Shown: piece after piece, positions 9,853-49,831 of the stretch
How the letters are laid out: each line of letters opens with the position of its first letter
Position numbering within the stretch: the stretch's first letter is position 1
DNA from: a virus
Length of the DNA: 64,000 nt
Direction: 5' to 3' (one strand)
IMG/VR virus record: IMGVR_UViG_3300030430_004473
Coordinates: 1 to 64,000 of that record
Translations under genes and position numbers: made by a program
Notes under the pieces: model-generated
Databases searched by the model: none
Told to the model about the DNA's origin: nothing
The model's input: only the letters and a program-made list of their open reading frames with translations

Positions 9853-9925
9853 CATAGATAGATATATCCGGACTTTGCAATATAGTTAGTCATAAATATT
9901 CATATTGAGTTTGTTATGTGAATGG

Positions 9926-9953
9926 AAAGGGGATCGTAAGATCCTCTTTTTTT
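9926..9953 (+). terminator. intrinsic terminator after the capsid gene
   Basis: A ten-pair stem with one G-T wobble: AAAGGGGATC (9926-9935), loop GTAA, GATCCTCTTT (9940-9949), then more T residues. Confidence 0.85.
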
Positions 9954-9954
9954 A

Positions 9955-9963
9955 TGTTATACT
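9955..9963 (+). promoter_or_regulatory. restart promoter after the capsid terminator
   Basis: TGTTATACT (hexamer 9958-9963) directly abuts the terminator T-run and would restart transcription for the connector genes. Confidence 0.6.
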
Positions 9964-15556: not shown

Positions 15557-15584
15557 ATTATAGCATTTTGTATTATATAGTCAA
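15557..15584 (-). promoter_or_regulatory. promoter of the 206-aa gene / TAGT operon
   Basis: Minus strand TTGACT (15579-15584), 16-base spacer, TATAAT (15557-15562). Confidence 0.7.
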
Positions 15585-27324: not shown

Positions 27325-27365
27325 GGGTGGGTTTTGTAGGTTAGGCTCACCCTTTTCTTTTTTTT
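27325..27365 (+). terminator. intrinsic terminator after the major tail gene
   Basis: GGGTGGG (27325-27331), 14-base loop, CTCACCC (27346-27352) with one G-T wobble, then a T-run. Confidence 0.7.
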
Positions 27366-27366
27366 G

Positions 27367-27375
27367 TGTTATAGT
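27367..27375 (+). promoter_or_regulatory. restart promoter for the chaperone genes
   Basis: TGTTATAGT (hexamer 27370-27375) directly after the terminator T-run; GGAGG and ATG follow. Confidence 0.6.
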
Positions 27376-37231: not shown

Positions 37232-37260
37232 TTGACAAATAATAACACAGATCGTATAAT
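37232..37260 (+). promoter_or_regulatory. consensus sigma-70 promoter
   Basis: TTGACA (37232-37237), exactly 17 bases, TATAAT (37255-37260). The best canonical promoter in the window; it drives the small-gene island. Confidence 0.85.
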
Positions 37261-44616: not shown

Positions 44617-47121
44617 ATGGCTATACAATTTGTTCGCGATCAATTGATTGACGCGATTATTAACCCTAGTAAAATAGATCTAACTACTGGAAACTACGAT
44701 TTTTCTAGTGTTACATCACTAACTTATAAAACCCCTACTACTGACTCTGAAGTAGCTATTAAGAGTTACGTTGATAGTGTTATCAACGGCCTTAACTGGA
44801 AAGACACTTGCCGAGCAGCTTCAACAGCTAACATTACTGGTACTTATGCAAATGGAACGGATGGCGTTGGTGCTACTCTTACAGTTACAAACTCCGGAAT
44901 TACACAAGATGGCGTTACACTTCGAGCAAATGATCGTATACTGTTGAAAAATCAGACAACAGATCCAGCTGAAAACGGTATTTATCAGCTTTCAACAGAC
45001 GGAAACGCATTAGGAGCTTCAGTTGAAGTAACTATAGCAAATGCAAGTAACATTACAAGTGGTGTAAAAGGAAAAGTACTTGTCGATCTAGTAAACAACG
45101 GAAATCTAGTCAATAACGTATCAAATCTTGTTATTGATGATTTTACTGGAACATCACACACATTTACATTTGGAGATGGCGTTGGTAATGTAGCAATAGG
45201 TGCTAGTGCAGCTGACACAATGACGAATCTAACAAATGCTATAGAAGCTCAAAATCCTAGAAAATTTCAAATAGATCAGAGTGGATCTCAAAGATTTATA
45301 TATTTAGCGGATGCAGGAGCTTCTAGTGATAATCCTCAAATAGCTAGTAATGCTATGACAGCTTTTGAATTAGGTGCTCAAACTACTTCACCTCAATCAT
45401 TTACTACCGGTAGTAGTGGCGATAAGATTACATTCACAAAGGCTGATGATAGTACAGTAATAATGGAAGCTGTATTGAGTACCCCAGGCCGAATTGGTAA
45501 TCAATTTGAAAAAACAGCTACTTCAGTAAATCAAGAAGTATCTTTATCTTTGCGAGATTCTTTAGTAGGTAATCCCGATCTTGACGCTAGAATAGACAAT
45601 GTAGATCCTGATAAAGTTATTGTATCGTTAGTAACTACCGGAACCGGTGGAAACGGAAAAGCAGTTACTTATTCACTTAGTAATGCCGGATGTATAACTG
45701 GAGGCTCCACATTTGAAAACGGTCAAGCTGTAACTAACTCAGTACTAACTAGAACGACAGATTTTGATATTGGTTCTGAAATGGCTAGTGCAGCTGTGTT
45801 TATCGAAGAAGGTACAACAAATGGAGATAACGGGTTTACATTAACTACAAATCAACCTATTCAAGTTGGTTTCACAAGTCTAACATTTGTTCAGTTCAAT
45901 GGTGCCGGTCAAATAACAGCTGGAGCCGGTCTTTCAAAGTCTGGAAATACGTTATCGGTTAATGTTGATGATAATACTCTTGAAATTAATGGCGATACTT
46001 TAAGAATCAAATCAAGTGCAGCTGGAAATGGTTTGACAGGTGGTGGGCCTTTAGCATTATCAGTTCAAAATGATGGGACTACAATTACTGTAGGGGCCGG
46101 TGGTATTAAGGTTTCAGACAATGGCATAACTGAAAATCAATTAGCTGGTTCTGTAGCCGGTGACGGTCTTAGTGGTGGAGGCGGTTCAGCTCTTGCTTTG
46201 GATATTGCAGAATTAACATCAGAAGTAATAGCTAGTGGTGACTTCCTTGCGTTTGCGGATGATAGTGCTGGTGGAAAGCCTACGAAGAAAGAAACAGTAG
46301 ACGATTTGGCAGCTTTATTTGCCGGTACTGGACTTGCAGCTGCTTCAGCAGTGTTATCGTTAGATATTAACAGTTTAACCGGTGCAGCTATACAAGGTGT
46401 TGATGAAATCGTATTTTCAGACACAAGTGATTCTAACAACATAAGAAAAGAAACAATCACTGATTTAGCTGCTTTCTTTGCTGGGACTGGTCTAGGATCT
46501 TCTAACGGTGTTCTAGCCTTAGATATTGCTAACATGACAGCTGCTACAATAGCTTCCGGTGACTTTATAACATTTTCTGATACAGGTTCTTCTGACGCTA
46601 TAAGAAAAGAAAGTATTGATGATATTGCTAGTTTGTTTGCTGGAAATGGTTTGAGTGCTAGTTCAGCTGTAATGGCTCTAGATCTCAATGAATTAACAGC
46701 TGCAACAGTAAACGTAGCCAATGATAGCATAGCGATTATAGACGCTGATGATTCTAACAGTACAAAGAAAGAATCTATTTCCGATCTTGTAAGTGCTATA
46801 GCTGGTACAGGTTTATCAGAAACTAGTGGTGTGTTAAATGTTGGTTCTCTCTCATTTTCTGAATTGGCATTTAGACCTTACATAGATAATTTTACAGCGA
46901 ACGGTTCTACTCTTGCATTTGCTCTAACAAATGATATCAATTCAGCTACTTGGGTGTTTGGAGCTGTTGTATCTAGGAATGGTCAAATCTTGAAACGTGT
47001 AGCAGCTTCACCAGCTGATTCTAGTGAATATACTATCGCTTCTAGTGGTGGTACTACAACCGTAACACTAGGAGCTAACCCAGCTAACGGTGAATTGATT
47101 CAAGTGAATTATTTCGCTTAG
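44617..47121 (+). CDS. tail fibre with tandem repeats, 834 aa
   Basis: Thr/Ser/Ala-rich fibre. N-terminal segment (SEVAIKSYVDSVINGLNWKD) is typical of fibre proteins. Residues about 515-745 are four ~55-residue repeats (LDI..LT, FAGTGL, RKETI.DLA). C-terminus is the same beta-sandwich type as the previous protein. GGAG ribosome site; the hairpin terminator follows. Likely binds host surface. Confidence 0.8.
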   Translation: MAIQFVRDQLIDAIINPSKIDLTTGNYDFSSVTSLTYKTPTTDSEVAIKSYVDSVINGLNWKDTCRAASTANITGTYANGTDGVGATLTVTNSGITQDGVTLRANDRILLKNQTTDPAENGIYQLSTDGNALGASVEVTIANASNITSGVKGKVLVDLVNNGNLVNNVSNLVIDDFTGTSHTFTFGDGVGNVAIGASAADTMTNLTNAIEAQNPRKFQIDQSGSQRFIYLADAGASSDNPQIASNAMTAFELGAQTTSPQSFTTGSSGDKITFTKADDSTVIMEAVLSTPGRIGNQFEKTATSVNQEVSLSLRDSLVGNPDLDARIDNVDPDKVIVSLVTTGTGGNGKAVTYSLSNAGCITGGSTFENGQAVTNSVLTRTTDFDIGSEMASAAVFIEEGTTNGDNGFTLTTNQPIQVGFTSLTFVQFNGAGQITAGAGLSKSGNTLSVNVDDNTLEINGDTLRIKSSAAGNGLTGGGPLALSVQNDGTTITVGAGGIKVSDNGITENQLAGSVAGDGLSGGGGSALALDIAELTSEVIASGDFLAFADDSAGGKPTKKETVDDLAALFAGTGLAAASAVLSLDINSLTGAAIQGVDEIVFSDTSDSNNIRKETITDLAAFFAGTGLGSSNGVLALDIANMTAATIASGDFITFSDTGSSDAIRKESIDDIASLFAGNGLSASSAVMALDLNELTAATVNVANDSIAIIDADDSNSTKKESISDLVSAIAGTGLSETSGVLNVGSLSFSELAFRPYIDNFTANGSTLAFALTNDINSATWVFGAVVSRNGQILKRVAASPADSSEYTIASSGGTTTVTLGANPANGELIQVNYFA
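46162..46845 (+). repeat. about four coding repeats of ~55 codons in the fibre gene
   Basis: Each unit encodes an L-D-I/L-x2-[LM]-T motif, a FxDxxxS turn, RKE[ST]I and F/IAGxGL. Amino-acid similarity is clear while DNA copies have diverged. Confidence 0.75.
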
Positions 47122-47174
47122 TAAATAATTAAAAGAATTTCTTCGGGTTGGAGAATTAATAATAATACAATTTA

Positions 47175-47228
47175 TTGTATTCCGCTCCTTTCTATGTTAT
47201 ACAAAATGATATAGAAAGGAGCTTTTTT
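47175..47228 (+). promoter_or_regulatory. terminator hairpin with a promoter in its loop
   Basis: GCTCCTTTCTAT (47184-47195) and ATAGAAAGGAGC (47211-47222) are perfect 12-base arms followed by six T. A promoter (TTGTAT 47175-47180, 17 bases, TATACA 47198-47203 preceded by TGT) has its -10 in the loop and predicted +1 at 47210. The right arm carries the GGAG ribosome site of the next gene, whose ATG directly follows the T-run. Confidence 0.8.
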
Positions 47229-47600
47229 ATGTTTGTGATTTATATTAAATTGAATGGTGCCAAAGAAATAGCACCGGTGCCTTGCAAAGCGATATTTGAA
47301 AGTGCGATACTGGGATCTGATTATATGGAGCTACATGGTGTTGATGAAAGAATCAAAGATAATATCTTGCCAAAGGCCACGATCAAAGTCATGACGATAC
47401 GCAAAGCTCATATTGAGTCAATCGTATCTTTCAATGCTTACAAAGAAGATGTTAGAAAAGATATTGTTGAACCAAAAGAAGAACCAAAGACAGAAAAACC
47501 ACCGCCAAAGAAAGAAGTAGTGAAGAAGAAAGAAGAACCAAAGACAAAACGCAAGTATGTTCGAAGTGGTAAGTATTCAAAGAAGAACAAAGTGAAATAA
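47229..47600 (+). CDS. hypothetical protein with Lys/Pro tail, 123 aa
   Basis: The start at 47229 uses the GGAG inside the hairpin arm, seven bases upstream. About 75 folded residues (MFVIYIKLNGAKEIAPVPC) and then a K/P/E-rich tail. Not recognised. Its unusual leader implies that only transcripts from the internal promoter are well translated. Confidence 0.65.
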   Translation: MFVIYIKLNGAKEIAPVPCKAIFESAILGSDYMELHGVDERIKDNILPKATIKVMTIRKAHIESIVSFNAYKEDVRKDIVEPKEEPKTEKPPPKKEVVKKKEEPKTKRKYVRSGKYSKKNKVK

Positions 47601-47604
47601 TCGA

Positions 47605-47943
47605 ATGACATTTGATGAATACGACCGAGAAGCTGAAAAAACAGCTAACTATCCTAGAGTGAACAACATAGGCCTTTGCTATGTATTTTTGGGCTTGGTT
47701 GAAGAAGCTGGTGAATGTTCTGGAAAAATCAAAAAGATAATTCGTGATGAAGAAAGTATAGAAGTAGGAATACAGAAAAAGAAATATGATATCATCAAAG
47801 AGCTTGGTGATGTTCTATGGTACGTTTCAGCATGTGCTAGAGAAATCGGAACAGATCTAGAAACGATAGCCAAAGAAAATAATAAGAAGTTACAAAGTAG
47901 ATATGAACGTGGTACGATAAAAGGAAGTGGTGACAACCGATAG
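47605..47943 (+). CDS. mazG: MazG-like nucleotide pyrophosphohydrolase
   Basis: 112 residues with the MazG metal-binding pattern EEAGE (E33, E34, E37) and KELGDVLWY (E66, D69). MazG hydrolyses NTPs and may alter host alarmone or nucleotide pools during infection. It may also remove unwanted nucleotides in a phage with modified DNA (inference). Short spacing to the previous gene suggests one transcript. Confidence 0.85.
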   Translation: MTFDEYDREAEKTANYPRVNNIGLCYVFLGLVEEAGECSGKIKKIIRDEESIEVGIQKKKYDIIKELGDVLWYVSACAREIGTDLETIAKENNKKLQSRYERGTIKGSGDNR

Positions 47944-47953
47944 GAGAATAGAC

Positions 47954-48208
47954 ATGTCAAATGAATTAAATTGGTTTCATATCAGACGTTGGAACAAAAA
48001 TAGAGCAGTTAGAAAACATCAGTTTGAAATGGCAAAAAGAAATCCTTCAGAAACTGACGATCAAATCATCCGAGCAATAGCTCAGAACAATGTCACAATT
48101 ACAAGAAAGGATACAGAAGATGAAAACAGGAAACAAGATCATAACGAAAGTTCTACCGAAACCGCTACACTGGACTCTACACAACATGATAGCTCATCCA
48201 ACGAGTGA
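47954..48208 (+). CDS. hypothetical protein, 84 aa
   Basis: AGGAGAATAGAC ribosome site. Basic N-terminus (WFHIRRWNKNRAVRKHQ), Ser/Thr/Asp-rich C-terminus. Overlaps the next ORF by 89 bases in another frame. Not recognised. Confidence 0.5.
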   Translation: MSNELNWFHIRRWNKNRAVRKHQFEMAKRNPSETDDQIIRAIAQNNVTITRKDTEDENRKQDHNESSTETATLDSTQHDSSSNE

Positions 48209-48335
48209 AATATTTTGGTTAGGTGGTTATGTATTACTTAAAAAGTTTGATCGTGGATCGAGTTTGATTAGGTTCGGTAATCTGATTCATGATATTACAA
48301 TACCATATCATCAACGTGGTGAAGGGAGAGGATAA
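48120..48335 (+). CDS. small hypothetical protein, 71 aa
   Basis: Contains HWTLHNMIAHPTSEIFWLGG and ends HQRGEGRG; I recall similar small proteins in other phages but cannot name a function. AAAGGA-type ribosome site. Its stop overlaps the next ATG. Confidence 0.55.
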   Translation: MKTGNKIITKVLPKPLHWTLHNMIAHPTSEIFWLGGYVLLKKFDRGSSLIRFGNLIHDITIPYHQRGEGRG

Positions 48336-49831
48336 TGTCAAAGAGCAATTGGAGCGGAGGATCTGGCTGGGGAGCTATAAACGATCCGACAGGGCTATTA
48401 ACCGGTAGAGTGCTAGTCACTACAGCTGGTCAAAGTCAGTATGCAGAAGATTATTTGTTTACACTGGCAGGAACAACAACAAATTTCACTGATGTTCATT
48501 ATGCAGTAACTATGAATTATGCGTTTCCTACATACGTCAGTGCTACTACGTTTAATGGAGCTTCATTGGGTATTATTAGCCGAGCTTCAGCTCTGACTAC
48601 TACGGCCCCTACAACAGCTGAATCTTGTTATATTGGTCGAATATCGCCAAAAGATGGGGTTGCTGAAATAGTTAGAAGAGTGTCTGGTGTTGATACTGTG
48701 TTAGCTAGTTCTACTCTTTCAAATGATACATATACTTATGGTGTATTGCATACTATGAGATTGAATACATTTGGAACAAATCCCGTAACGATTCAATTCT
48801 TAGTAGATGATGAAGTGTTAGTTAATGCTGGAGATTCTTCGGTTTCAGCTTTGGTTACTGGATATGCTGGTATTCAAATGCAAGGTGGGACCGCTTATGT
48901 AGATAACTTCACGATATTCCAATATACTTCATCCGGAACAGGAGCTTATACTGGCCTATATCCAAACAGTTTCTATGACACAGCTGTAGATCTAACATCT
49001 ACATTTCTCATTCTATGGTTAAGAGGTGATGTAGGTTTAACAAAGACTGGAGATTTTGTAGATTCGTGGGCAGATTCTTCACAAACTCGATTGGGTTCAA
49101 GTTATTCATTAACTCAAACCGGTAGTAATAGACCGGAATCGCCCACATCAGCTACGTTGAATAGTTTGGCTTATGTTCGTTTTGATCGATCAAAGAATAA
49201 TTTTCTACAAGGAGCTATCAATTCTGGATTCGATATATTCAATTCGGGATTTAATCTAGGCGTAGCTATGTTTGCAGTAATTAGATTTTGGGAAAATAAT
49301 GGTATAGTTGGAGATGGCAGATCTGTTTCAGATCCTGATGATACTGTAGCTCCACTTGGTAATTACGGAAGAGGATATCAATTTGAAGCTGTGAATTCTA
49401 TTTTAAGTAGTACAACACACGACAGAGATGGAAGATTTTTCAACAATAGTGCGGCTCAAGTAAAGGGGCCGGCCTTTGTAATGCAGAATTGGGGAATACT
49501 AGAAATCATATCTTTTGGCACTATAACAAATAGAGCAGCTGTTTATTTTAATGGATCAATAGTGGGAACAGTACTATCTGATAGACCGTTGAATTCAGAT
49601 TTATCAGATCCAGGCTTATTGTTTATGCTAGGTAGAAGAGTGTTTACTGAAACAGCTCCGGATTATCTATATGGATCATTTGATCTAGCAGAATATTTAT
49701 TGGTTCAAGTTGGTTCTGGTGGCATGACAGATACGATTCGCCAAAAGACAGAAGGATATCTAGCTTGGAAGTGGAATTTAGAGGCCTTACTTCCTTCTAG
49801 TCACCCTTTTAAGACTTCACCACCAACATAA
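48335..49831 (+). CDS. lectin-like tail fibre or receptor-binding protein, 498 aa
   Basis: Two concanavalin-A/LamG-like beta-jellyroll regions: about 1-205 (ending YVDNFTIFQY) and about 215-498 (ending GYLAWKW). The second carries the common GYLAWKWNLEALLP-type ending of phage and bacterial LamG proteins. Such domains bind glycans. It lies a few genes after the fibre gene and is probably virion-borne. A GGGAG ribosome site lies in the preceding gene. Confidence 0.75.
   Translation: MSKSNWSGGSGWGAINDPTGLLTGRVLVTTAGQSQYAEDYLFTLAGTTTNFTDVHYAVTMNYAFPTYVSATTFNGASLGIISRASALTTTAPTTAESCYIGRISPKDGVAEIVRRVSGVDTVLASSTLSNDTYTYGVLHTMRLNTFGTNPVTIQFLVDDEVLVNAGDSSVSALVTGYAGIQMQGGTAYVDNFTIFQYTSSGTGAYTGLYPNSFYDTAVDLTSTFLILWLRGDVGLTKTGDFVDSWADSSQTRLGSSYSLTQTGSNRPESPTSATLNSLAYVRFDRSKNNFLQGAINSGFDIFNSGFNLGVAMFAVIRFWENNGIVGDGRSVSDPDDTVAPLGNYGRGYQFEAVNSILSSTTHDRDGRFFNNSAAQVKGPAFVMQNWGILEIISFGTITNRAAVYFNGSIVGTVLSDRPLNSDLSDPGLLFMLGRRVFTETAPDYLYGSFDLAEYLLVQVGSGGMTDTIRQKTEGYLAWKWNLEALLPSSHPFKTSPPT

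Follow-up and report, generated by a model that had tools for sequence, protein, structure and literature searches.

The ribosome site of the IS10 and IS50 transposase genes is buried in RNA that arrives from an outside promoter and is left free in RNA that begins at the internal promoter. This fold-back inhibition operates at transposon ends rather than at operon boundaries, and it is not known to involve a terminator. In bacteriophage T4, genes e, soc, 49 and I-TevI are poorly translated from long transcripts, in which the Shine-Dalgarno (SD) sequence lies in a helix, while late promoters near the 5' strand of that helix yield RNA that escapes it (PMC3014915, PMC2988022). T4 segB and Aeh1 mobE have further ribosome-site hairpins with late promoters, and the T4 precedent has been tested experimentally by others (PMC3014915, PMC2988022). 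Cluster K mycobacteriophages carry ESAS modules, in which a SigA-like promoter is combined with an inverted repeat and with a start-associated sequence (SAS); the repeat is located upstream of the SAS and has no reported pairing with it (PMC3203893, PMC11373665). In Kayvirus 515A1, late promoters with a long -10 sequence, TGTTATATTA, and no -35 are reported, and the early promoter p98 directly follows the terminator t97; the accessible part of that report describes no promoter nested in a hairpin (PMC7698491).

The window analyzed here (64,000 nucleotides, positions 1 to 64,000 of the 75.8-kb record IMGVR_UViG_3300030430_004473) comes from a marine phage and contains a 54-base element at a gene boundary (47175-47228). 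As in the T4 e-type hairpins, the SD is predicted to be hidden on upstream-initiated RNA, and a candidate promoter in the region of the 5' strand would produce RNA that omits that strand. The T4 cases carry the phage late-promoter box TATAAATA and are presented, in the accessible portions of the reports, as a matter of translation alone, with no T-run attached to the hairpin. In the window element TATAAATA is absent; its -10 is the extended TGTTATACA, of sigma-70 type with the hairpin arm in the spacer, and a run of six Ts (T6) follows the stem. By analogy, the element would work like an e-type hairpin but outside the T4 late set. It resembles the cluster K ESAS/SAS as a repeated intergenic module with a promoter, an inverted repeat and a start-proximal sequence, but the SAS GGGATAGGAGCCC is not found beside its start codon, where the stretch before the ATG is AAAGGAGCTTTTTT. 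The Kayvirus -10 is close to the TGTTATA of the window phage, whose candidate promoter differs in being nested. Our preferred reading, which we consider probable, is that the terminator/SD hairpin with its nested promoter forms a one-way boundary between co-directional transcription units. The logic is known from T4 e and I-TevI; as far as we have found, the new variation on it is a repeated module that fuses it with a sigma-70-type promoter and often with a terminator. A search of the open-access literature found no description of a repeated module in which the spacer of a sigma-70-type promoter holds the anti-SD arm, in many cases together with a terminator T-run, although an earlier description is possible.

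Genomic setting and folding of the hairpin

The phage is a tailed phage. Its terminase, portal and capsid genes lie on the left and are followed by structural genes up to 47121 and then by MazG, methyltransferases, an exonuclease and a primase-helicase. The upstream gene (44617-47121, + strand; 834 aa) had been labelled tail fibre in an earlier note on this DNA, a label treated here as tentative, as its PHROG matches are only to virion-structural or head-decoration families (E down to 1e-18) or to unknown families. The downstream gene (47229-47600, +) encodes a 123-aa lysine-rich protein with no match in Pfam or PHROG and is followed by a gene for a MazG-like pyrophosphatase (47605-47943, +; PF03819, 2.6e-10; phrog_229, 4.8e-36). 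Three separate DNA methyltransferase genes are present in this one phage (11202-12188, 52063-53172 and 62701-63474). No similar named phage was found by DNA comparison, and the relatives of its terminase are 21-24% identical.

The left arm GCTCCTTTCTATGTTAT (47184-47200), the loop ACAAA (47201-47205) and the right arm ATGATATAGAAAGGAGC (47206-47222), all read on the + strand, form a stem of 17 pairs, the outer 12 perfect and five more that include two G-U pairs. The SD AAAGGAG (47215-47221, +) lies inside the right arm, 7 nt before the downstream ATG (47229, +), which directly follows the T6 run of the predicted intrinsic terminator (47223-47228, +). The perfect 12-base arms and the T-run that had been proposed are thus both present. 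The region folds at -27.2 kcal/mol, compared with -12.55 +/- 2.56 kcal/mol for dinucleotide shuffles (z -5.7). On both strands of the 75.8-kb record, the hairpin at 47184 is the top terminator-like hairpin (-22.6 kcal/mol), whereas the best in the reversed sequence of the same record reaches -14.6 kcal/mol. Its stable stem-loop followed by T6 has the form of an intrinsic terminator and, since the opposite strand lacks a T-run, it would as a terminator act on rightward transcription. No gene of the phage other than the one starting at 47229 has its SD within a perfect stem of at least 8 pairs.

In read-through RNA, every base of AAAGGAG is predicted to be paired (unpaired probability at most 0.003), as on the upstream-initiated RNA of T4 gene e, and opening the SD is predicted to cost 13-16 kcal/mol; this agrees with the proposal that upstream RNA hides the GGAG of the next gene. 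The predicted cost is about 3.8 kcal/mol for RNA that starts at 47210 and 5.9 kcal/mol for RNA that starts at 47205. The internal-start RNA retains weak predicted pairing around the SD, so the GGAG that had been called free in the internal transcript would be far easier to open but not completely open. From sequence and folding models we infer how transcripts would end, begin and be translated at this locus. RNA from the upstream structural gene would fold the stem and mostly end at T6, and RNA passing T6 would keep the SD of the next gene buried. Polymerase at the TGTTATACA promoter would start at about 47210 and, because this start falls after the left arm, its leader of about 19 nt could not form the stem and would leave the SD available.

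The candidate promoter

The candidate promoter consists of a weak -35, TTGTAT (47175-47180, +; 3/6), and a candidate -10, TATACA (47198-47203, +), separated by a 17-nt spacer in the same register as in the recurrent elements described below. The left arm of the hairpin occupies this spacer and reaches into the -10; as the region between -35 and -10 tolerates varied sequence, the arm would take no extra space. A TG at 47195-47196 gives the extended -10 TGTTATACA (47195-47203, +). Sites as good as TTGTAT-17-TATACA turn up about 8 times per kb when scored with a generic sigma-70 model; judged by the E. coli consensus alone, the candidate is therefore not above chance. No RNA polymerase gene was found among the phage proteins tested, and near-consensus sigma-70 promoters lie in intergenic regions at 37232, 49841 and 50194, which suggests that host RNA polymerase is the likely user of the phage promoters.

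The phage's own intergenic sequence provides a second standard. On the sense strand of these regions TG.TATA occurs 23 times (4.6 in shuffled sequence), TGTTATA 11 times (1.5 shuffled), TGTGTTAT 10 times (0.2 shuffled) and TATGTTATA four times (0.15 expected), with no copy of the last in antisense orientation or within a coding region; these ratios are somewhat optimistic because several related patterns were tried. The copies of TATGTTATA (4982, 9953, 11160 and 47193, all sense) lie 24-40 nt before start codons, and TGTTATACA, a member of the phage's TATGTTATA/TGTTATA set, lies 34 nt before its ATG. The -10 of the element thus appears to be one of the promoter motifs that this phage uses, and its spacing from the start codon is the usual one. 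The earlier note had placed a promoter here with its -10 in the loop; the -10 is a motif of the phage itself, sits at the boundary between left arm and loop and predicts a start near 47210, but measured against the E. coli consensus the candidate promoter is weak.

Another candidate -10, TGATATAGA at 47207, was discounted, as transcription from it would begin after the SD. The sequence TAATACAAAATGNTATAA forms a further promoter block, repeated ahead of gene starts at 15575 (-) and 47197 (+) and, in record coordinates, at 67354 and 70636 (L023); the loop of the element, TTATACAAAATGATATAG, matches it with 2 mismatches, which would give an overlapping second -10 with a start past the SD.

Terminator-like hairpins at 9924-9951 and 27325-27352 run straight into TGTTATACT and TGTTATAGT promoters, respectively, which suggests that this genome habitually joins a terminator to a promoter. 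At these two sites (9924-9963 and 27325-27375) the T-run, the promoter and then the gene start follow in tandem, whereas at 47184 the candidate promoter would be nested within the hairpin.

Recurrence of the layout and alternative readings

Searches for homologous loci began from MazG and from the genes on either side of the element. They found a single homologous region, on a 99.8% identical contig with an identical element; other relatives of the upstream gene have only that protein in common, not the region. Because so close a relative offers no covariation to read, the layout itself was searched across viral contigs. The scans were seeded on one strong SD (arms CTCCTTT/AAAGGAG), and the elements include some that are related, with identical protein starts collapsed. 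The first scan left flanks and loops unconstrained and fetched elements regardless of promoters. It matched hairpins with an SD in the right arm ahead of NTTTT and ATG in at least 119 viral stretches, compared with 15 in a scrambled-arm control, a difference that is due in part to AAAGGAG being a ribosome site. Among the matches listed, 28% of the 79 elements with a downstream ORF contain an embedded sigma-70 promoter of at least 9 bits with its start past the left arm, and the same test on these 79 listed cases at eight offset positions gave 0-2.5%. A promoter of at least 9 bits was present in 3% of 64 bacterial elements with the terminator/SD layout. Once redundant elements, divergent pairs and the twin of the window element had been removed, 77 elements remained among the matches listed, of which 22 have a near-consensus sigma-70 promoter (at least 9/12) with the left arm in its spacer (3.7 expected) and 15 have an embedded promoter of at least 11/12 (0.06 expected), the expectations coming from shuffled flanks and loops. 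The search for the layout that the earlier note had called for thus found it in dozens of other, unrelated viral contigs. The recurrent elements run from a -35 through a spacer that holds the left arm to a -10 at the loop or inside it, and then to the right arm with the SD and the start codon. The window element has this order too, with the commonest geometry of the set (4 nt from -35 to CTCC, 17-nt spacer) but weaker hexamers than most recurrent elements.

These data bear on a simpler reading, in which the hairpin is an ordinary terminator with the SD in its right arm and no promoter inside; the downstream block would then be expressed by read-through or from elsewhere, and the hairpin would only attenuate. 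A promoter that is weak by the generic score would fit such a terminator, and 55 of the 77 viral elements among the matches listed, and nearly all of the bacterial terminator/SD elements, have no strong embedded promoter. However, a TATGTTATA copy from the phage's own set lies at the right distance, the intergenic stretch offers no other, stronger promoter for 47229-49831, and read-through RNA, in which opening the SD is predicted to take 13-16 kcal/mol, would support very little expression; we consider this reading unlikely.

A second scan was seeded on TTGACA and the two arms, with neither T-run nor ATG required, and its control had the SD in the wrong arm. Among the matches listed, a -10 at 16-18 nt from TTGACA was present in 59 of 93 elements and in 6 of 66 flipped-orientation controls, and a start codon and ORF followed in 58 of 93 and 2 of 66, respectively. 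Past the seven imposed bases, 4.2 of the next 6 positions pair, compared with 2.6 +/- 0.16 when right arms are re-dealt among the elements. This argues that selection keeps the stem although its bases vary, a pattern that an RNA helix would give and a binding site for a single protein would not. T-runs follow 32 of 93 recurrent elements and 11 of 95 ordinary SDs in the same loci (among the matches listed), and therefore termination is enriched but optional. The constant part of the layout appears to be an SD hidden from upstream-started RNA. The upstream co-directional ORF usually stops 4-49 nt before the recurrent element.

Inverted repeats over promoters are frequently operators, and the dyad could be bound by a repressor or activator, with RNA folding incidental. 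A second perfect dyad just upstream (ATACAATTTATTGTAT, 47165-47180), which overlaps the candidate -35 and could bind a protein, could be such a site. An operator is nevertheless improbable here given the direction dependence of the SD on the right arm in the flipped-orientation control, the conservation of pairing while the stem sequence varies, and the fixed distance of T-run and start codon after the stem. A CTP-sensing attenuator of the PyrG-leader type, in which extra Gs at a GGG start would pair with the CU-rich left arm and block termination, is very improbable: the stem GCUCC..GGAGC and T-run resemble that leader (RF02371) and a 201-nt search gave a sub-threshold Rfam match (30.2 bits, E 0.016), but this is far under the gathering score of 65, there is no GGG start, the GGG near 47145 has no good promoter to start there, and the downstream gene is not pyrG. 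The PyrR leader was also below the Rfam threshold.

Several phages carry more than one copy of the layout. In a 216-kb phage, about ten elements each combine a -35 of the form TTGAC(A/T) with a left arm, an A/T-rich -10, an SD in the right arm and a start codon; three elements are present in a 51-kb phage and at least two in a 205-kb phage. The copies in the 216-kb phage (IMGVR_UViG_3300031813_000003, G001; L028, L273, L292, L306, L317 and L507-L518) are spread over 77-187 kb and have similar arms, CTCCTTTGTG...CACAAAGGAG, making this phage a natural multi-copy test system. In three other viral contigs (L049, L057 and L124), a TTGACA-17-TATAAT version lies directly before a MazG-like gene, which is the second gene after the element in the window. 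The upstream regions of mazG in two named cyanophages contain no element, since mazG there overlaps the primase gene. Arm matches were present in 7 of the 11 named phages searched, and among these seven no clear sigma-70-type example was found in the T4 or Twort contexts. Two facing ribosome sites of divergent genes can imitate the dyad, a confounder that fits 9 of 61 promoter elements but not the window element. In T4 (NC_000866, 116435-116473; L505) the facing ribosome sites of divergent genes 26 and 51 form such a CTCCTTT/AAAGGAG look-alike around a late-promoter-like TATAAATA, and it must be excluded in scans.

A possible insulator for packed phage genomes

Sequence, folding, motif counts and recurrence agree with the hairpin, the occluded ribosome site and the placement of the -10 that had been proposed for this locus. 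Three points are amended: the candidate promoter is weak against the E. coli consensus, release of the SD is predicted to be substantial yet incomplete, and tail fibre is a tentative label. We lean, by a small degree, towards the broader view that many phage lineages use, as a standard genome-wide insulator, a sigma-70-type promoter whose spacer holds an anti-SD arm, in many cases with a T-run, and so tie translation of each gene to its own promoter. The many natural copies make the module directly testable. If it works as we propose, about 55 bases would provide a terminator, a promoter, a ribosome site and a translational lock with no added protein. Such a module would offer a compact insulator for expression design and a searchable rule for the operon boundaries of uncultured phages, and it would explain how neighbouring units are kept separate in packed phage genomes.
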